From positions 78,024,706-78,088,705 of the forward strand of contig OZ024934.1 in NCBI GenBank assembly GCA_964017235.1: DNA of 64,000 nt, given 5' to 3'. Each line of letters begins with the position of its first letter. The first letter of the stretch is position 1. Made by a program: the position numbers and the translations under genes. Positions 2,229 to 64,000 of the stretch are shown in pieces. The notes under the pieces are model-generated. The model saw only the letters and a list, made by a program, of their open reading frames with translations. It made no database searches and was not told the origin of the DNA. Source of the DNA: Sabellastarte sp. h YS-2021. Taxonomy: Eukaryota > Annelida > Polychaeta > Sabellida > Sabellidae.

Positions 2229-2477
2229 ACCTCTACCAAGGAGGTGTTATGTTTATGTCTGTCCATTTGTCTGTTTGTTTGTTAGCAGGATTACACAAAT
2301 ACTACTGATTGGATCTTCCTGAATAAAAATCAGAAGATGGGTCTTGGTCCAACTTAGATCCCATTACATTTTGAGAGTGAATTGGATCATTGTCTGCACA
2401 CAAAAAAGATAATGCGGATTTTCCTATGGTACTTATTATTTGCTTCGGCGGAGTTATACGCTCTCCAAGTGCTCTTG
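2229..2477 (+). mobile_element. Short Helitron-like element N
   Basis: Begins after TT with the hairpin ACCTCTACCAAGGAGGT followed by TATG and a GTCTGTC-rich stretch. It ends with a subterminal GGCGGAGTTAT and CTCTTG directly before TT. The tail block is the inverted counterpart of an ACCTCCGCC-like head; the head here has drifted. At 249 bp it has no array and no ORF, so it is non-autonomous. Confidence 0.6.
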
Positions 2478-3097
2478 TTTATTTTTGATCTGACAAAGGA
2501 AAACACTACAAAGGCCAAAGTCTGTTTTCGTAGGATCAGTTTGGGTGAGATATGTTCAAAGTGTCACTTTTTTTACAGATTTTGACTCATCGTTCTAGGA
2601 GAGACATTAATAATGAAAAAAATGTATCACAATGTATTTTCTTTAATTTAGATTTGTTTCTCTTTTCTTCCTGCAACTCCATATGCTCCACAAGAATTTA
2701 AAATATAGAGGCTTATCTAAACAAAATCTTCAAAATTAGTTGTCTTGCCTCAACAGGAAGTTTAGTACAAAAATAAGGTATTTGGTATCTGTTCATATTT
2801 TATAGAGTAAAAAAGATGTAAAATTCACAGCAGTATGTTAAATTTACTTGTGAAGAAACTCCCTTCTATTTCCTTCCTACACACAGTTCTGATATTTTTG
2901 TGACAACACCAGGCTTTTTATCTTCCCTGATGCAAAATTGCCACCAAAATTATGTTTATTTTACCTAACTTTTAAATTGTGCCCATATTGGCAACTTTTA
3001 CATTCTGTTACCAATTTCTACATGTCTAAAGAAATGAAGAAAGAATAAAAAAAAATTATAAAGTTGATAATCATCCAATAATATATTGTTCTTTATT

Positions 3098-3625
3098 AGG
3101 ACAATCTTGTGACATCGGATGTCCTTATGGTTTCATCAAAATTTTTTTTCTCCTTTGTTTTCCTTCACTTTCTGCCTTTCTTCATTACAGCAAAAATGGT
3201 TCATGATATCATCTTCAGGTTTTCTGTGTTCGTTTCAGGGTCAAGGGGACAACTTTTGAAAAAAAAATTTTTACTTCCGCCATCTTGTTTCCAAGATGGT
3301 CGCCACCCATTTTTAAAGCTTGTTTGTCTTCAAACTTTGTACAGTAATTGATATTACTAATGGGAAGAAGCCTATTTATTTTAGACAAAATTGATATGAA
3401 AAAATGGCTGCCAGAGGCGATTTTGTAAAATGCAATTTTACCGATGCAATGCTAAGTACCACAAGGCTTGCTTCAGATGTCTCAGAAATGTTCCCATTGT
3501 GTTTTTTTTTGACATCTTTTATCCTATATAGGCCATACTAAAAAATATGACTGTTGCAATGATGAAAACTGACTTTTCTGCATGTCTCTGGAGGACGTCC
3601 CTAGGCCTGTAGGCCTTTTTCTCAA
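3098..3625 (+). mobile_element. Putative Helitron-like element J
   Basis: The head after TT is AGGACA...TGTCCT, an imperfect hairpin. The tail holds the hairpin AGGCCTGTAGGCCT and ends CTCAAG before TT. The internal sequence has the CCATCTTGTTTCCAAGATGG palindrome common in these elements. The match between head and subterminal tail is only partial, so the boundaries are tentative. Confidence 0.4.
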
Positions 3626-7620: not shown

Positions 7621-7812
7621 GGTCTAGCATTACAATGTATTCCAATATACCAGGGGATTTAATAACATAGGAAGGTGAAAAACCAGAATATATGGCAGTT
7701 GACTACTAACCAGCTGGACATGGATGAGATCACTTTGTTGTCAACTGTTAGTCAACAGAGAAGGTCTTTTAAGGGGTTAAGATCAGTAAGATTTCCTTCA
7801 TGGTTTTTACAG

Positions 7813-7962
7813 GTCAATGGGGTCGTCCCACAGTTAGTGCTCCATCAGTATTTGGGATGTTGGCAGGAGTGCTTGCCAACATGCTGGAGTCAGTAGGAGA
7901 CTACTATGCCTGTGCCCGGATAGCCAGAGTGCCTCCACCTCCCATGCATGCCATAAACAGAG
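7813..7962 (+). CDS. SLC23: SLC23 exon (GDYYACAR block)
   Basis: Encodes [20 protein letters not shown], then [31 protein letters not shown] in sequence. The G-D-Y-Y-A-C-A-R and P-P-P-P-x-H-A-I-N-R-G blocks are among the most conserved in animal SLC23 proteins. Acceptor tttttacag at 7812 and donor gtatgt at 7963 are both good, phase 1 at each side. A helix plus re-entrant substrate-cavity segment is expected here. Confidence 0.95.
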
Positions 7963-8338
7963 GTATGTACTGTTTTAGTAATCCTTTATGATAATTTTGA
8001 AAAAAAATCTTATTCTTAGAATAAGAATGCATATGAAATTATGCCTAGTAGTATAGACTTCAGTATGGAGATATCATATACACACATTTTTTTTATATTT
8101 TTGTAAGAATTTTAGCTTGTTTCCTTTGGATTAGCATATTAGTTATTTCCTATTATAGATTACATCCATTTGTTATTTCCTTATGCTTTATCATTTTTAT
8201 AGTGGAGATAAACCAGACAATTACAAGCCAAAATATAAAAGTGCTGCCTCCGGCCAGTAATACAAAGCTTGTATTTAAAAAATAATATACAAGTGTAAAG
8301 GTATACACAATGCACTAGTTCTATATTTCTATGTGTAG

Positions 8339-8442
8339 GGATTGGTATTGAAGGGATCGGCTGTGTTCTGGCTGGCGCCTTTGGAACAGGAAGTGGAACA
8401 ACATCCTACAGTGAAAACATTGGTGCTATAGGAATCACCAAG
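8339..8442 (+). CDS. SLC23: SLC23 exon with NAT signature motif
   Basis: Encodes [20 protein letters not shown] followed by [15 protein letters not shown]. The E-N-I-G-x(4)-T-K stretch fits the NAT signature [QEP]-N-x-G-x4-T-[RKG], which lines the substrate site in this family. The first residue is E, as in many nucleobase transporters, where vertebrate ascorbate transporters have P (from memory of those proteins). Acceptor ctatatttctatgtgtag at 8338, donor gtatgt at 8443, leaving phase 0. Confidence 0.95.
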
Positions 8443-9546: not shown

Positions 9547-11070
9547 AGCTTACTGGCCAACGGCCGTAAGCTAATGGCATGGCCTGGCGTCGTCTTCGTT
9601 GTTGTTGTTGTTGTTGTCGTCAACAATTTTTTCCAGCCTCTTCTCCTCAGAAACTACTGCACCGATTTCTTTGAAATTTGGTATGGAGCTTCCTTGGGTA
9701 GAGGACTATCATTTTTCCTCATTGCATGTTTTTCAACCAATCAGAGAAGGTCACATGACCAAAAACATGTTTTTCAAAAGGGTGTGCTTGTCTGGATGAT
9801 AACTTAAAAAGCGCTTCACCTATTCACATGAAATTTTGCAAGTAGGTTCGTTATATACATGTCTGGAAATCAATAACTTTTCGAAGTGATCCAATACAAA
9901 ATGGCCGACTTATTAATAATTTACTAAATGTCTCGATTTTTCTTAACGCTGAAAAAACAAAAACGTGTTTATCTCAGAAACAGTGCGAGATAGAGCGATT
10001 TCGTCGAAATTTTCGACCCCCGGGGTTTCTAAGGAGCGTACTCTTTGGAATTTTCAAAAAATTTTCCCCTCCCAAAAATGGCGGCCATTTTGAATTTTCG
10101 ATTTTTTGCCAAAAATGGAAAAACACAAAATTGCTTGTATCTCCTTAACCGTGCGAGATAGAGCGATTTCGTCGAAATTTTCGACCCAGAAGGTATCTAA
10201 GGAATGTACTCTTGACAATTTTCAAAAAATTTTCCCCTCCCCAAAAATGGCAGCCATTTTGAATTTTTGCCAAAAATGGCAAAACACAAAATTGCTTCTA
10301 TCTCCTTAACCGTGCGAGATAGAGCGATTTCGTCAAAATTTTCGACCCACAGGGTGCCTAAGGAATGTAGTCTTGCCAATTTTCAAAAAATTTTCCCCTT
10401 CCCAAAAATGGCGGCCATTTTGAATTTTCGAATTTTTGCCAAAAATGGAAAAACACAAAATTGCTTCTATCTCCTAAACCGTGCGAGATAGAGCGATTTC
10501 GTCGGAATATTCAACCCACAGAGTATCTAAGGAATGTACTCTTGCAATTTTCAAAAAATTTTCCCCTCCCCAAAAATGGAAAAACACAAAATTGCTTCTA
10601 TCTCCTTAACCGTGCGAGATAGAGCGATTTCCTCAAAATTTTCGACCCACAGGGTATCTAAGGAATGTAGTCTTGCCAATTTTCAAAAAAATTTCCCCTT
10701 CCCAAAAATGGCAGCAATTTTGAATTTTCGAATTTTTACCAAAAATGGAAAAACACAAAATTGCTTCTATCTCCTTAACCGTGCAAGATAGAGCGATTTC
10801 GTCGAAATTTTCAACCCACAGGGTATCAAAGGAATGTACTCTTGGCAATTTTCAAAAAATTTTCCTGTCCCCAAAAATGGCGGCCATTTTGAATTTTCAA
10901 ATTTTTGCCTGAAATGGAAAAACACAAAATTACAGGCAAAATGTGTTCTTTTTTATTTTACATTTATTGTTGTATAAAACATATATTAATTGCTGCACAT
11001 TTATAGCATGAAAAAAGTATTTGGGTGGCACAACCACAACATGCGGGTCGCCAGTAAGCAGCAGGCCTTG
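9547..11070 (+). mobile_element. Helitron-like element E with ~165-bp array
   Basis: After TT the element starts with the hairpin AGCTTAC-T-GGCC-AAC-GGCC-GTAAGCT, then a GTT microsatellite, TTCTCCTCAGAAACTACTG, and a body shared with A/B (CCAATCAGAGAAGGTCACAT, GGATGATAACTT). Six monomers of about 165 bp follow (9960-10930), marked by CGTGCGAGATAGAGCGATTT and AAAAATGGCGGCCATTTTGA. The tail holds GCCAGTAAGC at 11050, the inverse of the head's GCTTACTGGC, and the short palindrome GGCCTTGGCC. The exact 3' end is uncertain by about 10 bp. The short array ORFs on both strands are repeat shadows. Confidence 0.75.
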
Positions 11071-11267
11071 GCCTATTTTTTAACATGTTTTATTTGCTGT
11101 ATATATTTCTGCCATAACAAGTTGTACTTTTTTACCTCCCATTGGTTCATGAAAACTGACCCAAAATTATACTTGAACAGGCATTGACTGTGTTTATTTC
11201 TCATCAACAAACCTTGGCATAAAAACAATAATGTGTAAAGGTGAACCTCAGTCTTTTGTATTTTCAG

Positions 11268-12954: not shown

Positions 12955-13890
12955 AGGCGGGTTGCATGTAACCAACCCGCCTATTAGATTGATGTGTCCG
13001 ACGTCCGTCTGTCCGTCTGTCCGTCTGTCTGTCTGTCTGTCCGTCTGTCCGTCCACATTTTTCGTTTCCGGACTCTAACTTTAAAACGGTTTGACCAATC
13101 AAATTCAAACTTCACAGGGAGATAGATCACCATCATAGCTAGGTTCCTTTCAAAATTGGTGAAATTCCGTGTGTTCGTTTGTCCGTTTTTCGTCCGTTTG
13201 TGTGTCCATCCATCTGTTTGTCCACATTTTCGTTTCCGGACTCTAACTTTAAAACGGTTTGACCAATCAAATTCAAACTTCACAGGGAGATAGATCACCA
13301 TCATAGCTAGGTTCCTTTCGAAATTGGTGAAATTCCGTGTGTTCGTTTGTCCGTTTTTCGTCCGTTTGTCTGTCCATCCATCTGTTTGTCCACATTTTCG
13401 TTTCCGGACTCTAACTTTAAAACGGTTTGACCAATCAAATTCAAACTTCACAGGGAGATCGATCACCATCATAGCTAGGTTCCTTTCGAAATTGGTGAAA
13501 TTCCGTCTGTTTGTTTGTCCGTTTTTCCGTCCGTTTCTTCGTTTTTGTCCGTTTTTCTGTCCATCCATCTGTCCGTCCACATTTTTGTTTCCGGACTCTA
13601 ACTCGAAAACGGTTACTCCAATCTAATTCAAACTTCACAGGGACATACATCACCATCATAGCTAGGTTCCTGTCGAAATTGGTGTAAATCCGTCTGTTCA
13701 TTTGTCTTGTTTTTCTGTCCATTTGTTCGTTTTTAGATTAGAAGTATTACATTTCTTAGCACGTCGAACACATTTACCTTAAGTGGGTAACCTAACATTT
13801 CTTTCCTTGTTCCTAAATTTAATGAGAGCAGTTGCTAACCTTGTTTCCTGCGTGCGCAACCCGCCTTTTGGGGCACCTCTGACCCTCTTG
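12955..13890 (+). mobile_element. Helitron-like element D with ~170-bp array
   Basis: After TT the head is a 10-bp perfect hairpin, AGGCGGGTTG / CAACCCGCCT with an 8-nt loop (12955-12982). It is followed by GTCCGTCT microsatellite and about four monomers of roughly 170 bp (GGACTCTAACTTTAAAACGG, ATCACCATCATAGCTAGG). The tail has GCAACCCGCCTT, the inverse of the head, then CCCTCTTG at the end. The long minus-strand open frame here (198 codons, D-G-Q-x rich) is read-through of this repeat and not a gene. Confidence 0.75.
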
Positions 13891-15949: not shown

Positions 15950-16334
15950 TATATCTAGTTTAAAAATCATTAAGATGCTCTAAAACTTGAAATATTGCAG
16001 CTCAAATATGCGCAAAATATATAAGGCTAGGAAAGCTAGCCTGATAGTAATTTAGCCTAGTTTCAAAAACAAAATGGCCGTCATATCACATGTTAAATGG
16101 GATTATCCTATTAAAATGGCCTTATATCTCCCATATCATTGTTACTAGGGGTTCCAAATGTGAAAACTGATACGAAGTCAAGGCCTGAGACTATTTTACA
16201 ATTGCTGACTTTTTCCTTTGAGCCCTTCTTCATTGTCAAGTGGGGTTATCTTACTACAAATGCCTTATATCTCCTTTAGTTCTCCATCATTAGTGATTCT
16301 AAGGCGGGAGATAACCGCTGCGGCAGTGGCCTTG
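15950..16334 (+). mobile_element. Helitron-like tail L
   Basis: Ends GGCGGGAGATAACCGCTGCG-GCAGTGGCCTTG directly before TTTTTT (16303-16334). This is the same tail type found internally in A (minus strand, 16912-16945) and B (41044-41074), and it shares GGCGGGAGATAA with the tail of element C. No matching ATCTCCCGCC head was found, so the left limit is arbitrary. Confidence 0.5.
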
Positions 16335-16501: not shown

Positions 16502-19500
16502 CTAGAGGATGGCTCGCAAAAAAAAGATAATGTTTTTGCATAGCAAAAACAAAGTGTCCCGAAAAGGATATAAAGGTGAGTGCTAAAAGTGAAAATGCTT
16601 CGTTTCTAGCCTTATACTGTTGTGGCAACCAAAGTCAGCGCAGTCTGCTCTATCTAGCACGGTTTTCAAGATATAAGCATTTTTGTGTTTTGCAAAAAAT
16701 CCGAAAATTCAAAATGTCCGCTATATTTGGCAAGACAAAAATATTTTGAAAATTGGCATGGCTACTCTGCAGAGATATCCAGCAGGTCAAAAATTTTGTT
16801 GAGTTCGCTCCATGTAGCACAGTTTTCGAGATATAAGCATTTTTGTGTTTTGCAAAAACTTTGAAAATTCAAAATGGCCACCATTTTTGGGGAGACAAAA
16901 ATTTTTGACAAGACCACTGCCGCGGTGGGTATCTCCCGCCGAGCATTAAAGGAGAAGAAATAGCTTTTCCGAGATATTCACAATTTTTCATTTTCGTGTG
17001 TGAAAGCTCTTCTGCAATACTATTAAGAGATAATTCACATTTACTCCTTTTGAGTAGGTGAGTAATTACCTACGGGTCTGGAACTTCACCAAGTGAAAGT
17101 TCTCCCAAAAGTAGATGAATGAGTTATTTGAGAAAAATTGGGTATCCGCATTTCTTTTAGAGATAATTCACATTTACTCATTTTGAGTAGGTGAATAATT
17201 AGCTATGGGTCTGAAACTTCACCAAGTGAAAGCTCTCCCAAAAGTAGGTGAATGAGTTATTTGAGAAAAATAGGCTATCTGCAATACTTTTAGAGATAAT
17301 TCGCATTTACTCATTTTGAGTAGGTGAGTAATTAGCTATGGGTCTGAAACTTCACCATGTGAAAGCTGTCCCAAAAGTACATGAATGAGTTATTTGATAA
17401 AAATTGGGTATCCGCAATAGTTTTTCAGATAATTAGCATTTACTCATTTTGAGTAGGTGAGTAATTAGCTACGGGTCTGAAACTTCACGGAGTGAAAGCT
17501 CTCCCAAAAGTAGGTGAATGAGTTATTTCAGAAAAATTGGCTATCTGCAATACTTTTAGAGGTAATTCGCATTTACTCATTTTGAGTAGGTGAGTAATTA
17601 GCTATGGGTCTGAAACTTCACCAAGTGAAAGTTCTCCCAAAAGTAGGTGAATGATTTATTTGAGAAAAATTGGCTATCTGCAATACTTTTAGAGATAATT
17701 CGCATTTACTCATTTTGAGTAGGTGAGTAATTAGCTATGGGTCTGAAACTTCACCATGTGAAAGCTCTCCCACAAGTAGATGAATGAGTTATTTGATACA
17801 AATTGGGTATCCGCAATACTTTTACAGATAATTAGCATTTACTCATTTTGAGTAGCTGAATAATTAGCTATGGGTCTGAAACTTCACGGAGTGAAAGCTC
17901 TCCCAAAAGTAGGTGAATGAGTTATTTGAGAAAAATTGGCTATCTGCAATACTTTTAGAGATAATTCGCATTTACTCATTTTGAGTAGGTGAGTAATTAG
18001 CTATGGGTCTGAAACTTCACCAAGTGAAAGCTCTTCCAAAAGTAGGTGAATGAGTTATTTGAGAAAAATTGGCTATCTGCAATACTTTTAAGAGATAATT
18101 CACATTTACTCATTTTGAGTAGGTGACGTAATTATCTACGGGTCTGAAACTTCACCATGTGAAAGCTGTCCCAAAAGTACATGAATAAGTTATTTGATAA
18201 AAATTGGGTATCCGCAATAGTTTTTCAGATAATTAGCATTTACTCATTTTGAGTAGGTGAGTAATTAGCTACGGGTCTGAAACTTCACGGAGTGAAAGCT
18301 CTCCCAAAAGTAGGTGAATGAGTTATTTCAGAAAAATTGGCTATCTGCAATACTTTTAGAGGTAATTCGCATTTACTCATTTTGAGTAGGTGAGTAATTA
18401 GCTATGGGTCTGAAACTTCACCATGTGAAAGCTCTTCCAAAAGTAGATGAATGAGTTATTTGAGAAAAATTGGCTATCTGCAATACTTTTAAAAGATAAT
18501 TCGCATTTACTCATTTTGAGTAGGTGAGTAATTATCTACGGGTCTGAAACTTCACCATGTGAAAGCTCTCCCAAAAGTAGATGAATGAGTTATTTGATAA
18601 AAATTGGGTATCCGCAATAGTTTTAGAGATAATTAGCATTTACTCATTTTGAGTAGGTGAGTAATTAGCTACGGGTCTGAAACTTCACCGAGTGAAAGCT
18701 CTTTGGGATAGCTGCTCTGCAGAGGTACCCTGAAGATCAAAAATTTCGTCGAAATCGCTCTATGTAGCACGGTTTTCAAGATATTAGCATTTTTGCGTTT
18801 TGCAATTTTTGCGAAAAATTCGAAAATTCAAAATGGCCGCCATTTTTGGCGACACAAAATTTTTTTGAAAATTACCATGGCTACTCTCCAGAGATACCCT
18901 GCGGGTCAAAAATTTCGTCGAAATCGCTCTATCTAGGACGGTTTTCGAGATATAAGCATTTTTATGTTTTGCAAGTTTTGCGAAAAATTGAAAATTCAAA
19001 ATGGCCGCCATTTTTTGTGAGACAAAATTTTTTTGAAAATAGGCATGGCTACTCTGCAGAGATACCCTGTGGGTCAAAAATTTCGTCGAAATCGCTCTAT
19101 CTAGCACGGTTTTCGAGATGTAAGCATTTTTGTGTTTTCCTTATTTGGAAAATTCATAATGATTAATTAATCATTAATTACTCGGCCATTTCTTAACCAA
19201 TCAATGCCAAAATCTAATAATTTCCAGATTTTAATAGAATGAATGTATTGGCCAAGTTTCGGGTGAATTGATAAAATTCCTTTCAAGTTATCATCCGGAC
19301 AAGCTTCCCCATCGAAAAAAGACATTTTTGGTCATGTGACCTCTCTGATTGGTTGAAATGTCACTGCAGCATATTCAAAAAAATTCCCCAAGGCTACTGC
19401 CTAAACCTGCCAAATTTGAAAAGAATCCGCCTAACGGTTACACAGTTATAAGGAAAACAAAATGCGGAGCCGGCGGAGCCTGAAGGTCTCCCATACACAA

Positions 19501-19524
19501 ACAAGCGTCCCTTGCGGGATGCTT
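16502..19524 (-). mobile_element. Composite Helitron-like element A
   Basis: Minus-strand element; same family as B (36312-41493). On the minus strand the head is AAGCATCCCGCAAGGGACGC-TT after TT, near-palindromic. The body has CCAATCAGAGAGGTCACATG and GGATGATAACTT. The tail has the inverse block GGGACACTTTG, the hairpin TTTTTGC-TAT-GCAAAAA, and ends CTAG before TT. Inside are about 160-bp monomers (18720-19110), a 13-copy 133-bp array (17030-18705) and an internal foreign tail (16912-16945). No ORF of note; non-autonomous. Confidence 0.8.
16912..18705 (-). repeat. 133-bp array with foreign tail inside A
   Basis: Thirteen copies of a 133-bp monomer (landmark GGGTCTGAAACTTCAC). It is bounded at the left by a complete tail of another Helitron-like family (minus strand GGCGGGAGATACCCACCGCG-GCAGTGGTCTTG). 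A higher-order pattern is visible: the variant unit with GGGTATCCGCAATAGTTTTT at about 17400 recurs at about 18200, a period of six monomers (800 bp). Confidence 0.8.
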
Positions 19525-20073: not shown

Positions 20074-20319
20074 TTTTATTATCCACCATTTTGTATGATT
20101 AATGAGTTAAATAAACCCAGATTTAAAAAGAGAATGTGAAAGAATTCTGTCATTTTTCAGGAACACCTATCAATATAAAAACCTCAATATTTAACTTGTG
20201 ATTTCGAGGCCATTTCTGTATGGATTTTATGCAATAAATATGAAACGAAGCACTGTAAAAATACCTTTCTGATGATATATACATATTTGTAGATTTCATA
20301 GTTCCCAAAATAATAACTA

Positions 20320-21692: not shown

Positions 21693-21695
21693 AAA

Positions 21696-45140: not shown

Positions 45141-45363
45141 GAGTAAGAAATCTAAAATTCGCCACATATCTGAAATTCGCCACATGTGGAAATACTAATA
45201 AAATAAATGAATTAGGTGAGATTTGTTGAATGTACAGTAAGTTAAGGCTTTTTGAACTGAAACATGCCAATTTTCAGACAAAACATCATTTTCTTCATAA
45301 AATTAACTAAGGTTTTAGAGGTGGCAAATTTTAGATGCCTGGCGAATTTTAGATTTCTTACTC
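45141..45363. mobile_element. TA-flanked (mariner-type) MITE, 223 bp
   Basis: Perfect terminal inverted repeats of at least 24 bp (GAGTAAGAAATCTAAAATTC...) flanked by TA on both sides. The equivalent site in sister element F reads GTCTTAGTTTTTTT without the insert, confirming both ends. No ORF. A 21-T run follows at 45365. Confidence 0.8.
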
Positions 45364-47139: not shown

Positions 47140-47870
47140 ATAAAGAGGTGCATTCTTCAGAGCGCACTGGTACCGACTTCTCTGCTGTATAGCATCAGTC
47201 ACACCAGCCAGCTCGAGTATTTAGTGTTTTTTCATCAGAAGCATGAGATGAATTCTTCAGATTTCTTCAGAGCGCACTGGTACAGGCTTCTCTGCTGTAA
47301 AGCATCAGCCACACCAGCCTAGCTCGAGTATTTGGTGTTTTCAACAGAAGCAAGAGATGGATTCTTCAGAATTTTAATCTTCAGAGCGCACTGGTCCAGA
47401 CGTCTTTGCTTGTAAAGCATTAGTCGACTGGCAAGCTCCAGTTCAGCCTACCTCTCAATAGAAGGTGATATTAGTCCCTCCGTTGCAGACCCGGCTTTGT
47501 TGTCGGTAGTGGGGGTTGTGGATGGCCAGTTCACTGGTTTTATCACGAAAGGAATAAAGAATTTCATCTACACATCTACAGAGCGCACTGGTCCAGGTTT
47601 CTCTGCTTTTAAAGCATCAGCTGACCGGCCAGCTCAAAAGAACGCGACCTCTGACGTCATCTACACGAAGCTGATCACGTGATTCACCGACCAGGAAGGT
47701 CGGAAGTGCGTTCTTCAGAACTCATGTCTACTGTGATTCCAGTCCCAGTCTTGCAGACCCGGTCTTGTTGTCGGTAGTGGGGTTTGTGGACTAGCATAAT
47801 AGAATTACAGACCGACCAGGTTTTTTCCTTCTTCAGAGTGCACTGGTACCGACTTCTCTGCTGTAAAGCA
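47140..47870 (+). repeat. Internal repeats of DIRS 5' region
   Basis: The phrase TTCAGAGCGCACTGGTACCG plus TTCTCTGCTGTAAAGCATCA recurs about five times (47157, 47270, 47384, 47578, 47834) at irregular spacing. A second phrase, GACCCGG.TTTGTTGTCGGTAGT, recurs nearby. They probably arose by local duplication in the 5' region of the retroelement. Confidence 0.65.
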
Positions 47871-47910
47871 TCAGTCTACCAGCCAGCTCTGGCCAACCAC
47901 ACAGCCAACT

Positions 47911-48627
47911 ATGTTGTCGGTAGTGGGATTTTTGTGGACGGTAAAAATACTGTTAAGTTGCCTGTTGAGTATCACAAAGAACGCGACCACTGACGTCACC
48001 TCCAATCAGCCAATCGCGTGTCCTTCCGACCAGCAAGCTGGTCACGTGACACGCCGACCAACAATTGCTTCTAAAAATAGCTCGCAGGGGCTTTCCCAGC
48101 AACTGTCAAATCTACAAATAAGACGTGCGTTTAAAAGAAATACTTTAATTAATGGAGGAAACGCACAGAAAATTCAACACAAATTCAACACAAAAGATAG
48201 TTGTAAACTTGCTTCAGCAACTGGTTACAGAGTGTACCGACCGGGTACCAGCTACACAGCCTTGTACAGTTGCTTCCACAACTGCTTACAGAGTGCACCG
48301 ACCAGGTACCGGCTACATAGCCTTTGTGCAGCTTACCCGACCCAAACTGGTTACAGAGTCATCCGACCCAGTCCATTCAACTCTGTGTTGATTCTGGGGC
48401 AGGTAGACAGCAAGTATCTACAAATATGGCTTCAGCTGGTTACAGAATCTTCAAATCACCAGACCAGTTTACCGGCTATACAGCCTTATTTTCACCACAA
48501 CCGGTTACAGAGTGATCACTTCAACCACTGGTTACAGAGCCTACCAACAAGATACTGGCTATACAGCCTTGCTTCACCAAAACCGGTTACAGAGTCTACC
48601 CACCTAGTCCATTCAACTCTGTGTTGA
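47911..48627 (+). CDS. Gag-position ORF of DIRS-like element
   Basis: An open frame of 238 codons upstream of the reverse transcriptase. I recognise no gag domain. Much of it is built from a nucleotide repeat (CTGGTTACAGAGTGTACCGA; GGTTACAGAG occurs a dozen times from 48225 to 48890), which yields recurring T-G-Y-R-V and L-Q-S-x-P-T-R-Y peptides depending on frame. It may be a gag relic expanded by the minisatellite. Start codon uncertain. Confidence 0.35.
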   Translation: MLSVVGFLWTVKILLSCLLSITKNATTDVTSNQPIACPSDQQAGHVTRRPTIASKNSSQGLSQQLSNLQIRRAFKRNTLINGGNAQKIQHKFNTKDSCKLASATGYRVYRPGTSYTALYSCFHNCLQSAPTRYRLHSLCAAYPTQTGYRVIRPSPFNSVLILGQVDSKYLQIWLQLVTESSNHQTSLPAIQPYFHHNRLQSDHFNHWLQSLPTRYWLYSLASPKPVTESTHLVHSTLC

Positions 48628-49402
48628 TTCTGGGGCAGGTAGATGTGGAAGCATTTACAAGAATTCGACTGACTGGTTACAGAGTGTACTGACCAGATGC
48701 TGGTCTACACAGTCCTTATTTAGAAACTCGGAAAGCTAGCTTATTATGGACCAGTAGCTGTCTAAATTCATTGGTGACTCCAGCCTACCAGTTTTGCCAG
48801 TTACAGAGAATTACTGGTTACAGTGAATTACCGGTTACAGAGACCTGGTACCGGACAGAGTTGCCTAAGGTAATTTTGGTTACAGAGAATTCTTAGACCA
48901 GTCAGTTGGTCTTGATATTTCAATGTCCCAAGCTACTACCAGGCAACCTTCCCTTATCACACCTCTCACCAGCCTGTTATCGGTGCTGGTTTTGACTGGA
49001 AAGATAATAGATTTCAACCTTTCAATCAATCGGTTAGACACAGGAAAAACCAATAGGTCATTTCAGCAGCAAGAGAAAAGGTGGTCTACAGTCAAACAAG
49101 TTTTCATCACGTCCGGCCAGGGGTCAGCCATCTTTGTAAACTGTGTATATGCTGCACCTTGCAGGCAGCTGGCCTGGGGCAAAAGACCACAACAACTTGG
49201 ATCATTGTCACCAGACCGGACCAGTGTCCGGAGGGACATTTGGTTGTTTGTCAGACTACCAAATGTCCCAAATGTGACGCACATTCTGCCTGTAGGATCC
49301 AGGCTAAATCCGTTTTAGGAACTTTGGAAGCCTTGGGGGCTGTACCCTAGGTAGTATAAATGTTGAGGGAGGGCTACACTGCCTTTCTAGTCAAGACCAA
49401 AC

Positions 49403-50160
49403 TTGATAAGGTCACCAAAACTCATCAACTGCTATGTATATTCTCACAGGAACCTATATTGGTTAGTAGGCATTACATCAGCCTATGGACAAAGATGCAG
49501 TCAAGCCAGTTCAAAATCTCTTGGCTTCCTCGACTCGCCTTTCTTGGTTCCAAAACCACACAGCTGTTTGAGACCTATTCTAGATCTGAGCAAACCAAAC
49601 CTTTCGGAGACCATCAGGACCTCCCTCCAACAAGGGAAGTGGGTTACCTCAATAGATTTCAAGGACGCCTACTTCCATATACCTATACAGGAACAATCCA
49701 GGAAATACCAGATTTTACATCCAAGGTCGGGCATACCAGTTCAAGGCCCTGCCATTCGGTTTGTCCACAGCACCCATGGAGTTCACTGGGATACCAAAGG
49801 AGGTTAAACTGATGGCCATACACAAGGAGTGAAGAATCCACCAGTACCTAGACGACTGGTTGGTGAGAGCCAGATCCCACCAGGTTTGTCTCCAACATAC
49901 AGTGGAACTAGTAAAAATGTGTCAGCAACTGGGTTGGTTGGTGAACTTACAGAAATCAGAGCTGGAGCCCAGACAAAACTTCGATTTTGTAGGCTACCAG
50001 TTTTACCTCAGGTCTGGTCGGGTCCGACTGACTCCGGACTGGTGGCAGAACCTTCAAGAGAAAATGCTGAAACTGCTATCCCGACCGGCTTGCCCGGTCC
50101 GGGAATTCATGTCCTTGCTTGGTTTACTAACAGCTACAGAAAGTATGTTCATCTAGGCTG
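49403..50160 (+). pseudogene. Reverse transcriptase of DIRS-like element, frameshifted
   Basis: Synthesises cDNA in intact relatives. The frame at 49403 has P-F-L-V-P-K, L-R-P-I-L-D-L-S and the first catalytic block S-I-D-F-K-D-A-Y-F-H-I-P-I. The frame is lost around 49715. The catalytic Q-Y-L-D-D-W-L-V box is at about 49842-49865 in another frame, followed by LVNLQKSELEPRQNFDFVGY (thumb side). At least one frameshift and one stop separate the blocks, so the gene is broken. S-I-D-x-K-D-A-Y is typical of DIRS and related elements. Confidence 0.8.
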
Positions 50161-50500
50161 ACTTCATATGAGACCCATTCAGTGGCATCTCAAAAACAAC
50201 TGGAGGGTACCAGAACCAGTAGAAAAGGTGATCCCAATCCCCTGGTCCCTGAACTAAAAGCAGTCTTTCTGGCTTTAAAGAGTTCCAAGACCTTTGCTCA
50301 AACAAGATAGTACTTGTAGCAACCGACAACACAGTAGTGTCATACATAAACAAGGAAGGTCGGGCCCACTTTGTGCCCTACTATGGAGAATCTTGACCTG
50401 GTGTACCAGGAAACAAGTGACTCTAAAGCCCGACACATTCCAGGCCGGCAGAACGTGGTAGCAGACAAGCTATCCAGGCTAGGCCAGACCATCTAAACAG
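50160..50500 (+). pseudogene. RNase H region of DIRS-like element
   Basis: VLVATDNTVVSYINKEGR (from about 50312) holds the D-N-T RNase H box typical of DIRS elements. ARHIPGRQNVVADKLSRLGQ (about 50428-50490) is the usual end of the domain. The two blocks are in different frames. Confidence 0.75.
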
Positions 50501-51470
50501 AGTGGTCTCTCCTTCCAGAGGTCTTCCACTCGATATGCAGCAGGTGGCACCGGCCCAAAATAGACTTATTTGCCACAAGGTTCAACAACAAGTTGTCTCT
50601 GTTTGTGTCACCGGTACCGGATCCCCTGGCCACAGCAGTAGATGCGCTCAGTCTGCCATGGTAGGATCTGGAAGCATACACCTTCCCACCATCAGCCATA
50701 TTGGAAAAAGTGGTGGAGAAGTTGCAAGACTCCCCATGCAAGAGAATCATCCTGATTGCCCTGGGGTGGCCCAACATACCTTGGTTTTGGGATCTAGTGG
50801 CCATGTCCAGCCAAATCCCACTGAGCCTGCCCAATCTGACCAACCTGTTGACAGTCATTTAATCAGATCCCTTACAGAAATCTGAATCTCCATGCATGGC
50901 TCCTAGAGCCTCAGCAATTGAGGAGCAGGGCTTGTCTGAGGAAGTGGCAGCAAGAATTGAGGCTCCTCAAGCGGGATCAATCAGATCAGTCTATGAGGCA
51001 AGTGGGCCATTTTTACAAAGTGATGTATCATTTATCAGGTGAACTTCGGGGCACCCCCTGTTAAGTCAGTTGCTGACTTCCTTATGTACCTGTTTCAGGA
51101 CAGGAAGTTGCAGCCCAGCACCACTGATGGTTACAGGTCAGCCATTGCTGATAGACTGGGAAATTCACCCATCAATATCAGTAAGGATGAAATCTCACTC
51201 GTCTCCTGGATAGTTTCCACTGAGACAGACCCAAAGGCCGGAGGGGAATCCCCTCCTGGAACCTCTCCCTGGTTTTTGCACCAGCTGACAAGGTTCATTT
51301 TGAACCAATTAAAGAGGCCTCCTTGAAGCATTTGACCTTCAAGACAGATTTCCTCTTGGCACTGGGGTCGGGCAAGTGTAGAAGGGAGATACATGCTTGG
51401 CAACCGACCATGGCCTTACAGGGTTTCCTGACCTTAAGGTCAACCCAGGCCAAGTCAGCCAAGACCATAG
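50500..51470 (+). pseudogene. Tyrosine recombinase-like region of DIRS element
   Basis: An N-terminal linker is visible in pieces (IDLFATRFNNKLSLFVSPVP near 50560; DALSLPW near 50640). Then SVADFLMYLFQ and PSTTDGYRSAIADRL (51069-51160) match the SAM-like core-binding domain. LKHLTFKTDFLLALGSGKC-RREIHAW (51325-51400) matches the box carrying the first catalytic arginine. The downstream H-x-x-R and Tyr boxes were not found. Frameshifted; not functional. Confidence 0.7.
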
Positions 51471-52251
51471 GCTAAAATTTGCTATTACTTGTGAGTTCAC
51501 ATAAGGCCCTAGTAACTTACCCGCCGACCAAGCGGTAGTTATTCAGCAATTGTCCATTGGATAGGAAGTATTAACGCAATAAATATAATCCCACCGACCC
51601 CGCTATCAGCTTACTAGGGGTCTAATAGGTTTAGACAACAAAAAAGATGCTATGACGTCACTCTGTCTAGACAGGAAGGAAGTATGATGCGCCACCTTGC
51701 AAGTGCACAGTACTGGGACCAGCCGGCTGGTGGAGACACAGGATGTCTTTTTCTGGCGTTTGGCGGGCCGGTCTGCGCCAACCGGATTAGCAATTGTCCA
51801 TTGGATAGGGTATTAACTTATAAAAATTTAATTTGCTTATTAAATTTGCAATTTTCTCATTTTTCAGCAGTTAGCATAATGACTAAATGGCTGATATCCT
51901 CAAAAGTGTTGCAGCCATGCAATTTCTTGTAAAGGTTTTCTCATCTACTTTTTTGTGAACTCTAACATAGTTAAGTTTCAAAGTTGTTGCTCAGTGTTTG
52001 AATGAGTTATAGCTACTTTTTCACTTTTCAGCAGTTACCATTATGAATAAATGGCTTCAATCTTTTAAAGTATTGCAGGTACATAATTTCTGTCAAAGGT
52101 GTTGTTCATTTACATTTTTGTGAACATGGTAATGTTTCAGACTGGTTGCTGAATGCATGAACGTCTGAATACCATTTGCAGCATACAACTTTTGTGTCCT
52201 TTTCTACTTTCACTTGTACTCTGAAACTCAAAACATAAAGTCAGCTGACAC

Positions 52252-52672
52252 TAGTGGGTGGACGATTAGATGTGTGCTCGATTAATCGTCGGTGACAGTG
52301 TAGAATCGCGGTCGGTCACTGACGTTTTCTAATGATCGATTATAAAGCTTATATCTTACCTTTCCTGATTTATATCAATATCCACGTATTTTAAAAATGT
52401 TTTAGGTATTTTTACTTAATAAACTGGCAGTTTTGTCTTGAATTTGAAGTTTGTTTATGTCTACCGCCATATTTACAGGAAGTGGGTGCTTTCGGTAGAT
52501 TCCAAATGTCGGAACACCGTTATTCTTACCGGATTGACCAATACTTTATCCCAGAAAGTGTTTCTTAAATAATAAACAATAATGGAGTAAAATAATCGAT
52601 TATGGGTCGATCATCGCTCGGACAAATGGGCGAATAATCGACCATGAAAATTGGAGGCGATTCCCAACACTA
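52252..52672. mobile_element. hAT-like MITE, 421 bp
   Basis: Ends TAGTGGGTGGACGATTA and (inverse) TAGTGTTGGGAATCGCC, flanked by the 8-bp duplication GCTGACAC (52244-52251, 52673-52680). The empty site is visible in element F (GTCAGCTGACACAGTG). 8-bp duplications and TAGTG ends fit the hAT superfamily. Internal CGATTAATCG/CGATTATGGG inverted segments; no transposase. Confidence 0.8.
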
Positions 52673-52899
52673 GCTGACACAGAGCCCATTCACGGTTACT
52701 GATTGCTTGTTATCTCCCGCCGGGCTTTAGCCCGGGAGGGAGATTATGAAATGATGCCTGTGTGTGCGTGCGTGCGTGTGTGCGTTAGTTAGTCACGCAG
52801 ATTTCTCCAAAACTACTACAGCTACAGATTTTTTGTAAATTAATTGTCCCAATGAATTTTTACGCCCTCGAAAAATTTTTTGGTTTTATGGACTTAGGC

Positions 52900-54700
52900 T
52901 TAAAGATAAGCGAGTAATAGCAATCTTAGCTACTTGGAGTAAAGGGCTCATAACTCAAAAACTATTGCAGTTACAACTTTTTCTTCAAATATGTTGTTCA
53001 GCTACTTTGTCCTTAGCTATAAGATGGTACATAGTTTGGGGTCCCATTGCATGCCATAAGTGAGTAATAGCTATTTTCTTATTTGTAGCAAAATAATGAC
53101 ATAAGTAAATGTCAAATATCTTCAAAAGTATTAAAGTTAGGGAATTCTTTTCAAATATGTTGTTCATATACTTTTTGATAAGCTATCACATAGTAAAGTT
53201 TCAGATCTGTTGCACATTGGATAGCTGAGTAATAGCTACTTTGAAATTCTACAGTTGAGTAAATCCATTGTAACTCCAAAACTAGTGCAGTTAGAGTATT
53301 TTCCTAAAATATGTTGTTCAGCTACTTTGTCCTTAACTATAAGATGGTATATAGTTTGGGGTTCTATTGCATGCGATAAGTGAGTAATAGCTATTTTCTT
53401 ATTTGTAGCAAAATAATGACATAAGTAAATGTCAAATATCTTCAAAAGTATTAAAGTTAGGGAATTCTTTTCAAATATGTTATTCATCTACTTTTTGATA
53501 AGCTATCACATAGTAAAGTTTCAGATCTGTTGCACATTGGATAGCTGAGTAATAGCTACTTTGAAATTCTACAGTTGAGTAAATCCATTGTAACCCCAAA
53601 ACTATTGCAGTTAGAGTATTTTCCTAAAATAAGTTATTCAGCTACTTTGTCCTTAACTATAAGATGGCATACAGTTTGAGATTCTATTGCGTGCCATAAG
53701 TGAGTAATAGCTATTTCCTTATTTGAAGCAAAATAACGACATGAGTAAATTTCAAAGATCTTCAAAAGTATTAAAATTAGGGGATTCTTTTGAAATATGT
53801 TATTCATCTAGTTTTTGGTAAGCTATCACATAGTAAAGTTTCAGACCTGTTGCACATTGGATAGCTGAGTAATAGCTACTTTGAAATTGTGACTGTTGAG
53901 TAAATCCATTGTAACTCCAAAACTATTGCAGTTAGAGTATTTTCCTAAAATATGTTATTCAGCTACTTTGTCCTTAACTATAAGATGGCATACAGTTTGG
54001 GATTCTATTGCATGCCATAAGTGAGTAATAGCTATTTCCTTATTTGAAGCAAAATAACGACATGAGTAAATTTCAAATATCTTCAAAAGTATTAAAATTA
54101 GGGAATTCTTTTCAAATATGTTATTCATCTAGTTTTTGATAAGCTATCACATAGTAAAGTTTCAGACCTGTTGCACATTGGATAGCTGAGTAATAGCTAC
54201 TTTGAAATTGTGACTGTTGAGTAAATCCATTGTAACTCCAAAACTATTGCAGTTAGAGTGTTTTCCTAAAACATGTTATTCAGCTACTTTTTCCTTAACT
54301 ATAAGATGGCATATAGTTCGGGGTTCTGTTGCATGCCATAAGTGAGTAATAGCTATTTTCTTATTTGTAGCAAAATAACAACATGAGTAAATTTCAAATA
54401 TCTTCAAAAGTATTCAAGTTAGGGAAATATTTTCAAATATGTTATTCATCTAGTTTTTGATGAGCTATCAGATAGTAAAGCAGCAAACCTGTTGCACACT
54501 GGACAGCTGAGTAATAGCTACTTTGAAATTGTGACTGTTGAGTAAATCCATTGTAACTGAAAAACTACTGCAGTTACAGGATTTTCCTAAAATAATTTGT
54601 TCAGCTACTTTTTCCTTAACTATAACATGGCATATCGTTTCGGGTTCCATTGCATGTCATAAGTGAGCAATAGCTATTTTCTTATTTGTAGCAAAGTTAT
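52900..54700 (+). repeat. 320-bp dimeric array of element C
   Basis: Alternating half-units: one with CAGCTACTTTGTCCTTAACT, the other with AAGCTATCACATAGTAAAGT. The combination repeats at a period of about 320 bp (52993, 53310, and onward). Both halves share GAGTAATAGCTA, so the unit is a diverged dimer. Confidence 0.75.
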
Positions 54701-56990
54701 GATGGAAATACCACATAGTGAAGTTGCACAACTGTAGCTCTTTGGATAGCTGAGTAATAGCTACCAAAATGAGTAAATGTCTTTTATCTCTAAAAATATT
54801 ACACATAGGCAATTTCTTCTAAATAAGTCATTCACCTACTTTTGTGTGATCTACCACATAGTGAAGTTGCAGAACTGTAGCTCTTTGGATAGGTGAGTAA
54901 TAGCTACTAAAATGAGTAAATGTCTTTTACCTCTAAAAGTTTTACAGATACACAATTTCTTCTAAATAACTCATTCACCTACTTTTGGGTCATCTACCAC
55001 ATAGAGAGGTCCTCAGTGGCCTAGTGGTTAGCAAGTTTGGCATCTAATCATAGGCTGTCACCTCTGTGGGTTCGAGTCCCACAAGTGGCAATTCTGAGGA
55101 CCTGTCCCAATATGACCCTGGCTGTTGAACGGGACGTAAAACCCCAACTTTGACCTTTGTCTACCACATAGAGAAGTTGCAGAACTGTAGCTCTTTGGAT
55201 AGCTGAGTAATAGCTACTAAAATGAGTAAATGTCTTTTATCTCTAAAAGTATTACAGGTAGGCAATTTCTTCTAAATAAGTCATTCACCTACTTTTGGGT
55301 GATCTACCACATAGTGAAGTTGCAGAACTGTAGCTCTTTGGATAACTGAGTAATAGCTACTAAAATGAGTAAATGTCTTTTATCTCTAAAAGTATTACAG
55401 GTAGGCAATTTCTTCTAAATAAGTCATTCACCTACTTTTGGGTGATCTACCACATAGTTAAGTTACAGAACTGTATCTCTTTGGATAGCTGAGTAATAGC
55501 TACTAAAATGAGTAAATGTCTTTTATCTCTAAAAGTATTACAGGTAGGCAATTTCTTCTAAATAAGTCATTCACGTACTTTTGGGTGATCTACCACATAG
55601 TTAAGTTACAGAACTGTATCTCTTTGGATAGCTGAGTAATAGCTACTAAAATGAGTAAATGTCTTTTATCTCTAAAAGTATTACAGGTAGGCAATTTCTT
55701 CTAAATAAGTCGTTCACCTACTTTTGGGTGATCTACCACATAGTGAAGTTGCAGAACTGTAGCTCTTTGGATAGCTGAATAATAGCTACTAAAATGAGTA
55801 AATGTCTTTTATCTGTAAAAGTATTACAGGTAGGCAATTTCTTCTAAATAAGTCATTCACCTACTTTTGGGTGATCTACCACATAGTTAAGTTACAGAAC
55901 TGTATCTCTTTGGATAGCTGAGTAATAGCTACTAAAATGAGTAAATGTCTTTTATCTCTAAAAGTATTACAGGTAGGCAATTTCTTCTAAATAAGTCATT
56001 CACCTACTTTTGGGTGATCTACCACATAGTTAAGTTACAGAACTGTATCTCTTTGGATAGCTGAGTAATAGCTACTAAAATGAGTAAATGTCTTTTATCT
56101 CTAAAAGTATTACAGATAGGCAATTTCTTCTAAATAAGTCATTCACCTACTTTTGGGTGATCTACCACATAGTGAAGTTGCAGAACTGTAGCTCTTTGGA
56201 TAGCTGAATAATAGCTACTAAAATGAGTAAATGTCTTTTATCTGTAAAAGTATTACAGGTAGGCAATTTCTTCTAAATTAGTCATTCACGTACTTTTGGG
56301 TGATCTACCACATAGTGAAGTTGCAGAACTGTAGCTCTTTGGATAGCTGAGTAATAGCTACTAAAATGAGTAAATGTCTTTTATCTCTAAAAGTATTACA
56401 GGTAGGCAATTTCTTCTAAATAAGTCATTCACCTACTTTTGGGTGATCTACCACATAGTAAAGTTGCAGAACTGTAGCTCTTTGGATAGCTGAGTAATAG
56501 CTACTAAAATGAGTAAATGTCTTTTATCTCTAAAAGTATTACAGGTAGGCAATTTCTTCTAAATAAGTCATTCACATACTTTTGGGTGATCTACCACATA
56601 GTGAAGTTGGAGAACTGAGCTCTTTGGATAGCTGGGTAATAGCTACTAAAATGAGTAAATGTCTTTTATCTCTAAAAGTATTACAGGTAGGCAATTTCTT
56701 CTAAATAAGTCATTCACCTACTTTTGGGTGATCTACCACATAGTGAAGTTGTAGAACTGTAGCTCTTTGGATGGCAGAGTAATAGCCACTAAAATAAGTA
56801 AATATCTTTTATCTCTAAAAGTGTTACAGATAGGCAATTTCTTCTAAATACGTCCTTACCTACTTTGGGTTGATCTACTGCATAATAAAGTTGCAGAACT
56901 GTAGCTCTTTGGATGGCAGAGTAATAGCTACAAAAGTGAGTAAATGCCTTTTGTCTTTAAAAGTGTTGCAATCAAACATTAAACTTGTTG
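54700..56990 (+). repeat. ~142-bp array of element C
   Basis: About 15 monomers with GATCTACCACATAGTGAAGT, GAGTAAATGTCTTTTATCTC and GTCATTCACCTACTTTTGGG. Interrupted by the SINE at 55008. Closely homologous to the 133-bp monomer inside A and B. Confidence 0.85.
55008..55159 (+). repeat. tRNA-SINE (family 2) with perfect 15-bp TSD
   Basis: Flanked by TCTACCACATAGAGA at 54993-55007 and 55160-55174. The tRNA-like head has A box TGGCCTAGTGGTTAGCAAG and B box GGTTCGAGTCC; the body ends GGGACGTAAAACCCC. The best preserved family 2 copy in the window. It is a SINE, not a functional tRNA gene: the sequence between the boxes does not fold to a standard anticodon arm by eye. Confidence 0.88.
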
Positions 56991-58130
56991 TCACTTCTAC
57001 ATGTGCCTCCATCTCACAAGAAAGTTTATATTCCACTATCTTTAGTACATCTAATTTATATGGCGGGAGATAAATGCATGTGTCAGAATGCTTGTTATAA
57101 AAATATGTTAATTACATGCACACTTGTCCTGGTATGATTGTTGTTTTGTTTATGTTTGTTTCAACCCCACAATAAATCCTAAGAATCATTGCATCGGGTG
57201 TGATGTAATATTTATTTGTGATCTGTGGATGACCTTGAACAAAGAGCTCCAAAGTCAAATTTGTGCAGGTTTGTAGACGATATGTAGATCTAATGTAGAT
57301 CTATTATACATATAAATGACACTGCAGCAGTACATGGTAAATGATGTTTAAATTGCCAAACAATATTCTCAATCAATAAGAATTATACTTCACATTACAA
57401 TTTATACTAGTTTTAAACAAATTACACACAACTGCAACTGTATCTAATGACATGAAGCAGGAGACTTTACTCTCATAAATTAACACCTACAATTGACACA
57501 ACATATTCAATTTAGAAAATTATTAAGAAAATAAGAACACAAAGGCAAAATTAGCTAGAAAACACTCCTAGAGTACAGACCTCCACCAATTAAGCCAAGT
57601 ACACAGAATATGTTCTAGATGAATTCTTTCTCTCATCAAAAATTTCAGAAAGATCCATTCATAATATTTTGGAGTAATCTCAATAACAACAAAAACAAAC
57701 TCATTGAAAAATAGGCCTAATTGAAAGTTTGTGATTTTTTTCATATCCATGATGTAGATCTTTCCCAAAATTTAATCACTTCTTCCTTTCACCTGACATG
57801 TGTGTGCATTAATTTTCGAGAAATTGTAAACAGATAGACAAAAAATTAATGAACCCCAAAACATAACCTCCTCGGCTGGATAATTAAGAAAATGTAATAC
57901 TGGATGAATATTTCTATAACGCTTGTAAATTTTCAATATTTTGAGTCATTTTCGAGATCTGTTGCATAATTTCAGTGAATGTTATTTGTTGTCTCATTTA
58001 AGGAGCCACACTGTTAAATTTTACATGCACTGGCAAATTTCTTACTTTGTACATTACCCTTAAATTGTAGTTTCCTATGAAGAACACTATTGCATAAGTA
58101 TAGTGCTCGTTAAGCTTTGCATTTTTGTCT

Positions 58131-61633: not shown

Positions 61634-61663
61634 GTATTGTATTTATTTATTTGCATGTTCATT

Positions 61664-61800: not shown

Positions 61801-62549
61801 TCTGGATTCAAAAAAAATCTTGAATTTTCAAAGGTTCCATTATTTGTGATGTTAATTGGTTGCAGCATTTGTCTTGTTTTTATTCTATATTCTAATTGCC
61901 AGAACATTGACCAAAACATTTTTTATTGATGGTGATGTCAATAGAGTTTCTACCATTTTTTCACACTTTCACCTGTTTCTCATACATTTTAGCAAGGAAT
62001 ATGTCATTATTATTATCATTATTCTATACAAACTTTTTCAGCACTTATTTCCATGTTAGCATGAATTCTAAGGTACAACAGCAATAACATGGCCATAAAT
62101 CACTAGTCCATTGATAGACATGAGTTGGTAACACTAGCATTATATACAAGGGGTTAGCTAATTTCTGGAGTGTTTACATCCTGAAACAGGTGTGCCCTTA
62201 GTTGCCTCCTGAAGGCTGATAATATGGAAGCCAGTGATATGTTTTTATAAGGTAGTTCCAAATTCTTGAACCATCATTAGTCAATCAGCCATCGAATTGA
62301 ACCTTGGACTTATGGACCCAGGCATTTTATGGTGAAACCATAGGATTTCTGTTCTTAGCATTAGATCTACATGTGTCTAGGGTAGACATCTTCTCAATTC
62401 ATCAGAAAAAATTTGACCTTGAATCTCTTCAATGAAGATCATCCAGAGACTGCAAATGTCTCCCACTGAGACCTTTTTCAGCCATGTTTTAGCATATTTT
62501 AATTTGTAGTTATGGAAGTACACATCCATTTTCTGTAAGAGAGCTTGAA

Positions 62550-62943
62550 AATAGTATTACTATAGAATACCTAGACATGATGTGACTCATCTGACCTTTG
62601 GCACCTTGCTTCATGGTCAAAGAGGATTAACTTATCCAATATGCCTATGCCTCACTTATTACTGGTCCAAGGGTTTTTGGATGTTAAAACAAGTAAAAAT
62701 AATTCAAGGTCTACAAATTTTAGGTGGAGTCTGATTCGGCCTTTGACTCCTGCTTCAAGGTCAAACCAGGTCTTTATTCTAAAAAGGCCTATATCCTCCT
62801 TGTTATAGGTCTCAGAGTTCTTGAACATGAAAAATCTTACACTAAATCATTGACTATGACTCTTTCTGTTTTTAGATCAAATGGGTTCTTCATACCAAAA
62901 AGTTTTTTATCTCCCTGGAAGGCCTTACATCTCCCCTTTTATT
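62550..62943 (+). repeat. Decayed monomers of the F/H second module
   Basis: Two to three diverged units recognisable by CTTATTACTGGTCC, GATTCGGCCTTTGACTCC and CTTCAAGGTCAAA. They lie directly upstream of the head of H and belong to an older element. Confidence 0.5.
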
Positions 62944-64000
62944 AAGCATCCCTTGAAAGGGGGGACGCTTATTGTTTTCACCCCCAGTTTTCAGACAGCT
63001 GCCGCTGCTGCATTATCATCTCCCATGAATATCTCCCTTGATATTAGGCCTATCCAAATGATATTTAGCAGTTATCTTCTATAGGCATGGGAAAAAATTT
63101 TGGACAGGCATAAATTTGACCTTTCATTTTTATCAAGGTCACATGATCAAAAACAATTTTTTTTTCTTGTGCTTCTGTCTCACCAGATTTTCTAAGAAAG
63201 TACAGACTGTGGGTCAACCAAATTTGGTAAGCATATCCTCACATCACAATCTCAGCGCCAGTCGATTTTGAGATCAATCAGGCTTTAATTGACTGATTGT
63301 TGGGCAATTATCAGCTGATAAAAAACATACTAAAATAGTACTTATAACTCACTTATTATTGGTCCTAGAGGTTTGGGATGTGAAACCAACCAAAAGGAAA
63401 TCATGGGCTGGGAGTCTTTTGATGTTGTCAGATTTGACCTTGGCCCCCCAGCCCCTGCACGGTCAAACAAGGATAGCCAAACTTAAAAATGCTTATAACT
63501 CACTTATTATTGGTCCTAGAGGTTTGGGATGTGAGACCAAACTACGGGAAATCATGGGCTGTAAATCTGTTGATGTGGGTCAGATTTGACCTTGGACCCC
63601 TCCTTCAAAGTCAACCATGGATAGCCAAACTTAAAAGTGCTTATCACATGCTTATTACTGGTCCTAGATATTTGGGATGTGAAACCAACTTATAGGAAAT
63701 CATGGGCTGAGAGTCTTCTGATGTGGTCAGTTTTGACCTTGGGCCCCTCCTTCAAGGTCAAACGAGAATGACCAAACTTTAAAGTGCTTATAACTCACTT
63801 ATTATTGGTCCTAGAGGTTTGGGATGTGAGACCAACCTATAGAAAATCATGGACTGTGAGTCTTCTGTGGTCAGATTTGACCTTAGACCCCTCCTTCAAG
63901 GTGAAACGATGATAGCCTAATTTAAAAGTCCTTATAACTCACTTGTTATTAGTCCTAGAGTTTTGGGAAGTGAAACAGACTTATAGGTAATCATGGGCTG
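62944..64000 (+). mobile_element. Helitron-like element H, cut by window end
   Basis: After TT the head is AAGCATCCCTTGAAAGGGGG-GACGCTT, the same type as the head of A/B. The body has AAGGTCACATGATCAAAAAC. From 63340 the ~150-bp module TTATTGGTCCTAGAGGTTTG repeats about five times up to the window end. The tail is outside the window. Confidence 0.7.

Follow-up and report, generated by a model that had tools for sequence, protein, structure and literature searches.

The window analysed here, a stretch of 64,000 nucleotides (C8:78024706-78088705) from a Sabellastarte genome of 1.79 Gb in 647 contigs, contains many elements with unrelated end sequences, which raises the question of whether such elements can follow one structural rule and be moved by one enzyme system. 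The first-pass annotation had proposed both, based on nine heads that were each said to start with an A directly after TT, and this is what is found at all nine positions. The nine heads represent seven head families, with those at 35380 and 44803 belonging to one family and those at 36312 and 62944 to another. We consider it very probable that the seven families are non-autonomous Helentrons (HINEs) with satellite-like cores, because their ends, the T-rich target, the absence of a constant duplication, the satellite cores and the Helentron-type Rep genes of the same genome all agree with the class to which they had been assigned. The shared layout is already published for HINEs, and the families described here are further examples of it.

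Copy numbers are given as exact heads on both strands of the genome, which understates the families since only exact matches are counted. The F1 element (2229-2477, forward strand) is a short copy without a satellite core, with the head ACCTCTACCAAGGAGGT and a tail that runs from GGCGGAG to GTGCTCTTG, followed by TT; its consensus head has 764 exact matches, and satellite arrays are present in all window copies but this one. The F2 element (9547-11081, forward) has a core of about 161-169 bp between the head AGCTTACTGGCC..GTAAGCT and a tail composed of GCCAGTAAGC, a short hairpin and TATTTTTT, with 270 exact heads and four further copies that have both ends in one locus. The F3 element of the AGGCGGG head family (12955-13890, forward) has a 168-bp core, the head AGGCGGGTTG..CAACCCGCCT and the tail GCAACCCGCCT..GACCCTCTTG followed by T; 326 exact heads were identified, and complete copies number 24 with the window copy counted (374-1485 bp). 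On the reverse strand, the F4 element (20319-21400) has a 156-bp core, the head AACCCCAG..CTGGGGTT, the tail CTGGGGTT..GGCTATTTTT and 24 exact heads, its 3' end being less certain with a single tail seen in full. At 7812-8442 and neighbouring positions, a permease gene (Xan_ur_permease, PF00860), likely a nucleobase/ascorbate transporter, is represented by two exons, and HINEs occupy the noncoding sequence around them.

Other elements are nested or placed end to end. F5 is the largest family, with 5,721 exact heads if any two loop bases are allowed, and its element at 35380-44680 (forward; head ATGTCAGCTGAC..GTCAGCTGACAT, tail GTCAGCTGACACAGTGCCCGTTCACGGGCACTCTCCTCTTG, then TT; 155-bp and 147-bp cores) is split by a copy of F6. 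The latter (36312-41493, forward) lies within F5's 155-bp array and has 169-bp and 133-bp cores, the head AAGCGTCC..GGACGCTT and a tail of GGACGCTT, a hairpin and GCGATCCTCTAG, then TT, with 32 exact sites in the genome. A second F6 copy of 3.0 kb (16502-19524, reverse) has the same ends, with the terminus CCTCTAG followed by TT, and is 92.5% identical to the copy at 36312 across 2,247 bp. The second F5-family copy (44803-52709, forward; tail AGCTGACACAGAGCCC..GATTGCTTG, then TT) has lost the second arm of its head, of which just a short palindrome is left. Its tail is split by a small element at 52252-52670, with ACACTAG on either side as judged by eye, which we take to be hAT-like; when the flanks of a copy interrupted by an F3 HINE were joined, 38 related places matched across the junction. 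Inside the same HINE, the GC-rich stretch at 46500-51800 has a weak reverse-transcriptase match (PF00078, below cut-off) and may be a decayed retroelement that the HINE captured or that inserted itself there. The F8 element (52712-57094, forward) follows the tail of this copy after two T, with 321/143-bp cores, the head ATCTCCCGCC..GGGAGAT and the tail GGCGGGAGAT..GAATGCTTG, then TT; three heads of this family were seen. An F6-type head (AAGCATCCC..GGGACGCTT) at 62944-64000 (forward) precedes a different interior with a 147-bp array and has its tail past the window end.

A further family, F10, has a 3' end in the window at 27421-27450 (forward), composed of the GGGCATCTCTGATGC hairpin and TATTTTT, and 17 copies of this end were collected. 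The region from 26200 to 34530 is a tandem duplication with a shift of 4,232 bp, in which 3,953 of 4,100 bases are identical and the repeat arrays are duplicated too. At 16303-16334, a tail GGCGGGAGATAACCGCTGCGGCAGTGGCCTTG is followed by TT, with no matching head recognized upstream by eye; inner stretches resembling it occur at 41050 and 16940 (reverse), within the F6 copies, and all of these are possible traces of another ATCTCCCGCC element.

The annotation had described the heads as beginning in a hairpin. This is the case for six of the seven head types, which fold better than all of 200 shuffles, but not for the F1 head at 2229, the fold of which is unremarkable (18 of 200 shuffles equally good), nor for the head at 44803, with its lost second arm. 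A 3' hairpin is clear in five of the eight tails folded; the tails of F4, F5 and F10 beat 200 of 200 shuffles (z -5.4 for the F10 3' end), F6 all but one and F3 all but three, and equally good shuffles were many for F1 (18 of 200), F8 (75) and F2 (87). Likewise, an inverted copy of the head had been placed within the opposite end and not at its tip, which is true of six of the seven window copies. The first 14 head bases have an inverted match in their own tail of 10 nt in F2, 11 in F3, 8 in F4, 12 in F5, 8 in F6 and 10 in F8, about 22-51 bases inside the opposite end, as compared to at most 7 nt (mean 4.5) in 42 mismatched head/tail pairs. Random 60-base draws from the window, some of which may include elements, match that length in 12-129 of 20,000 cases for these six families. 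The F1 window copy, with an inverted match of just 5 nt, failed the test.

The 5' boundary was followed in head copies taken from the window's own genome. TT precedes 113 of 116 heads (F1 10/11, F2 31/31, F3 35/37, F4 11/11, F5 5/5, F6 18/18 and F8 3/3) and is missing before three, against a background of TT at 11.7% of positions in the sequence compared, and copies at unlinked sites part from each other exactly before the A of the head. The proposed TT|A rule thus describes nearly all heads, but five of the families are more exactly captured by TTTTT|A. TTTTT was found before 28/31 F2, 27/37 F3, 10/11 F4, 5/5 F5 and 2/3 F8 heads, together 72 of 87, as compared to 2/18 F6 and 3/11 F1 heads, together 5 of 29 (Fisher p ~3e-10). 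Conversely, ATT precedes 15/18 F6 and 5/11 F1 heads, together 20 of 29, as compared to 6 of 87 in the other five families (Fisher p ~9e-11). Both values refer to a grouping that was chosen after the data were seen, and F1 by itself is mixed. Among TTA words in the sequence compared, TTTTTA accounts for 5% and ATTA for 26%. For F5, the genome contains 5,083 exact TT-loop heads preceded by TTTTT; among the first 100 of the 5,721 heads listed, the TT loop is present in 97, of which 80 are preceded by TTTTT, so that the share varies. Five families therefore prefer TTTTT|A and the AAGCGTCC family (F6) prefers ATT|A. Three of the 31 F2 heads are preceded by a piece of an F2 head and are thus partial head duplications with non-independent ends. 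At locus L035 (719-2370), three consecutive F3 heads have an almost identical flank (GCTATGGTTTTT where shown), probably reflecting a local duplication of the element with its flank.

At the 3' boundary, the annotated rule that tails end in CTAG or CTTG holds for F1, F3, F5, F6 and F8, whereas F2, F4 and F10 end in a hairpin followed by TATTTTT. Complete copies were those in which the tail fell within the locus sampled around the head. The terminus GACCCTCTTG is followed by T in 23 of 24 complete F3 copies, CCTCTAG terminates three of three F6 tails, and CTTG terminates three of four F5 tails, the fourth of which diverges before the end. The hairpin-TATTTTT(T) terminus was seen in four of five F2 copies and hairpin-TATTTTT in the one F4 tail of the window, and exactly five T after an end of this type were found in 12 of 17 F10 copies. 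We also considered whether the CTAG tail type is tied to the ATT target and rejected it, as F1, a family that does not lean towards five T, has 2,747 exact CTCTTG tails in the genome versus 76 of the CTAG variant.

The flanks were compared in the 28 of 33 copies that were delimited at sound ends (24 F3, 2 F6 and 2 F8), the other five being F2 copies delimited inside their 3' hairpin. Among the 24 complete F3 copies, 17 have 2 flanking bases in common, 7 have 3 and 1 has 4 or more. A shared flank of 6 was found in none of the 28 sound-ended copies, and a length of 5 in two, both of which are T runs. A constant target duplication beyond T was hence not found in these copies; ordinary terminal inverted repeats with a duplication of fixed length were the pattern that the annotation had set against its own reading. 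A clean empty site is available for the F6 copy at 36312, where uninterrupted monomers read TATTTTG and the occupied site reads TATT|element|TTTTG, with two extra T. Two F3 sites compared to paralogs at about 73% identity also have two extra T each and are weak cases; in one of these, L003, the right flank aligned over just about 22 bases. The joined flank of L003 gave 40 matches, namely its own two flanks and 38 across the junction, and the latter, at 76-82% identity, are too diverged for T to be counted by coordinates. Taken together, the three sites point to roughly two T being gained, but the right flank does not begin with TT in 7 of 24 F3 copies; at the clean site, the extra T could be either a TT duplication or T borne by the element. 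Thomas et al. (2014; PMC4067079), in the sections drawn on here, saw no modification of the target site and did not settle how the T are distributed.

Some insertions have landed on other HINEs. An F2 or F3 head lies directly behind the five T of an F10 end at 6 of the 60 loci sampled by F2/F3 heads, with F3 at L043 and L045, and F2 at L065, L072, L073 and L076. The F10 copy at L073 is closest to the unoccupied copy at L014 (96%), and that at L045 to the unoccupied copy at L032 (98%), and the copies at L043, L072 and L076 are 83-88% alike. The occupied F10 copies are not one clone, which therefore argues for several separate landing events. Furthermore, the F10 copies at L045 and L065 are 97% alike, yet one is followed by F3 and the other by F2. 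The idea that the five T are part of the 5' end of F2 and F3 was rejected because unoccupied F10 ends are already T-rich: ends without a following head have at least five T in 10 of 11 cases and exactly five in 6 of 11, and the six occupied ends have five T each. The F6 copy at L010 also appears to be lodged in the run of T with which an F4 copy ends. Despite their unrelated ends, the families share interiors, such as F2 and F6 (75% over 1,153 bp), F6 and F8 (74% over 1,706 bp), F5 and F8 (71% over 1,540 bp) and F5 and the element at 62944 (82% over 662 bp), and the F6-type head is found with at least two interiors.

A search of the genome for Rep-helicase genes flanked by the same ends had been recommended. 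Helentron-type Rep domains are present, but none could be tied to any of these ends by its distance to them. The Helitron_like_N domain (PF14214) has 24 matches in the genome, some within long open frames such as those at C3:168674076 (2,245 aa) and C2:137362922 (1,783 aa), and 0 in 14 control genomes. Two of the 24 domains were read; both were confirmed as PF14214 and are of the Helentron type, with the motifs EFQHRGSPHLH and KFQARGSPHSH (GSPHxH), and they are 35% identical. An S before PHxH in Rep motif 2 is given as a Helentron mark in the relevant section of Thomas et al. (PMC4067079). With both domains as queries against all sequence compared, only their own loci were recovered, each query also recovering the locus of the other. 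Judged from these sequences, the genome holds at least two Helentron-type Rep lineages. An autonomous element with these ends was not found in what was a weak search, by distances from exact F2, F3, F4 and F6 heads and F1 tails to Rep matches. All 32 F6 and 24 F4 exact heads are at least 0.43 Mb from the closest of the 24 Rep matches. For F2 and F3, the comparison was made around the Rep matches of contigs C1 and C2, five in number; the closest exact head was once at 17 kb, on the opposite strand from a weak Rep match, and more than 350 kb away for the remaining matches. For F1, the comparison covered 68 of the 76 CTAG tails, those on contigs C1-C14.

How, then, might these elements move? By analogy with the family, a Helentron Rep/helicase would nick the 5' end after a T run, one strand would be displaced up to the 3' hairpin, and the displaced strand would be joined to the target after a stretch of T. 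The layout observed starts with TT|A and the head hairpin and finishes with the inverted head copy, the 3' hairpin, where one is clear, and CTTG, CTAG or TATTTTT. It could be argued that one and the same Helentron enzyme serves all seven families by reading the hairpin and the TT rather than the end sequence, as the common layout, the near-universal TT and the interiors common to families with unrelated ends would suggest. However, the extended target is family-specific, at least two Helentron-type Rep lineages were recognized, and head and tail are matched family by family, a matching that would be needless if structure were all that is read, so that we find this scenario unlikely. One enzyme system for many families is thus a fitting description at the level of the superfamily, whereas one enzyme for all families is not supported, given that the two Reps are 35% identical and the targets differ. 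It is likely that several related Helentron enzymes are at work and that each family is moved by whichever recognises its ends. A more elaborate hypothesis, which we put forward tentatively, is that the genome houses several Helentron enzymes that differ in their end code and in their TTTTT or ATT context, that these act on a shared pool of satellite cores able to move from one end module to another, and that the 3' end of a HINE with its five T serves as a preferred landing pad, giving rise to chains of HINEs with their satellites.

Explanations outside the Helentrons fare worse. Canonical Helitrons (HLE1) could account for CTAG, a form of the Helitron CTRR seen in F6 and a minority of F1, and PF14214 is common to both groups. 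But the heads begin with A and not with TC, the flanks are TT/T instead of A|T, the ends contain subterminal inverted repeats and both Rep domains read have GSPH, not GLPH, making this assignment highly improbable. The elements might instead be taken as ordinary MITEs of a transposon with terminal inverted repeats and a 2-bp TT or a TTAA duplication, considering that inverted ends are present, that F6 starts TT|AA, that TT is on either side of 17 of 24 F3 copies and that the clean empty site has two extra T. This is just as improbable, since the repeat is terminal on one side but lies in the interior of the opposite end, the right flank lacks an initial TT in 7 of 24 F3 copies and TTAA follows none of three F6 tails. 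As for chance, arising from T-rich flanks and selection by the first-pass annotation, the window has 37 places with TT|A and a stem of at least 7 bp, six of which are the annotated heads, and TT|A plus a hairpin is on its own non-specific. Yet unlinked copies diverge exactly at the boundaries in F1-F6, and on three copies in F8, which leaves practically no room for chance. We therefore return to HINEs as the preferred reading.

In the sections of Thomas et al. (2014; PMC4067079) on the HINEs of Metaseiulus, Culex and Drosophila, including DINE-1, the elements resemble those described here in their palindromic subterminal inverted repeats and T-rich target, in the 3' palindrome of those tails here that have a clear one, and also in the variable number of T and the central tandem repeats. 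They differ in that the repeats of the mite HINEs are placed 2-4 nt from the 5' tip, whereas the hairpin of the window families begins at base 1, and in that some have an autonomous partner, whereas none was found for the window families. Asymmetrical terminal inverted repeats with palindromes at either end, the 3' one being clear in part of the families, are also a likeness to Helitron2, which is distinguished from Helentrons there by a Rep/helicase without an endonuclease domain (PMC4067079). Vojvoda Zeljko et al. (2020; PMC7492417) describe the Cg_HINE elements of Crassostrea gigas as each combining end modules with satellite-like cores in a way of its own, and several HINEs that mix such modules and cores are also what we see here, by layout. 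Furthermore, as far as the consulted parts of PMC7492417 go, both have an oligo-T target, no target-site duplication and some insertions within other transposable elements, and the autonomous partner of the oyster elements is unresolved as well. The split between five T and ATT, and the landing at the exact 3' end of a HINE, are not stated for Cg_HINE in those parts. What is added here are boundaries fixed across the genome, two target contexts, landing sites of five T and evidence of Rep genes from the same genome.

HINEs spread satellite DNA across genomes, and the account of PMC7492417 referred to above left it unresolved which enzyme moves the oyster elements. Families that have an enzyme in common are predicted to fall on the same side of the divide between TTTTT and ATT targets. 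With seven sharply bounded families, some of them in thousands of copies, alongside Rep loci, end recognition becomes testable in one genome.
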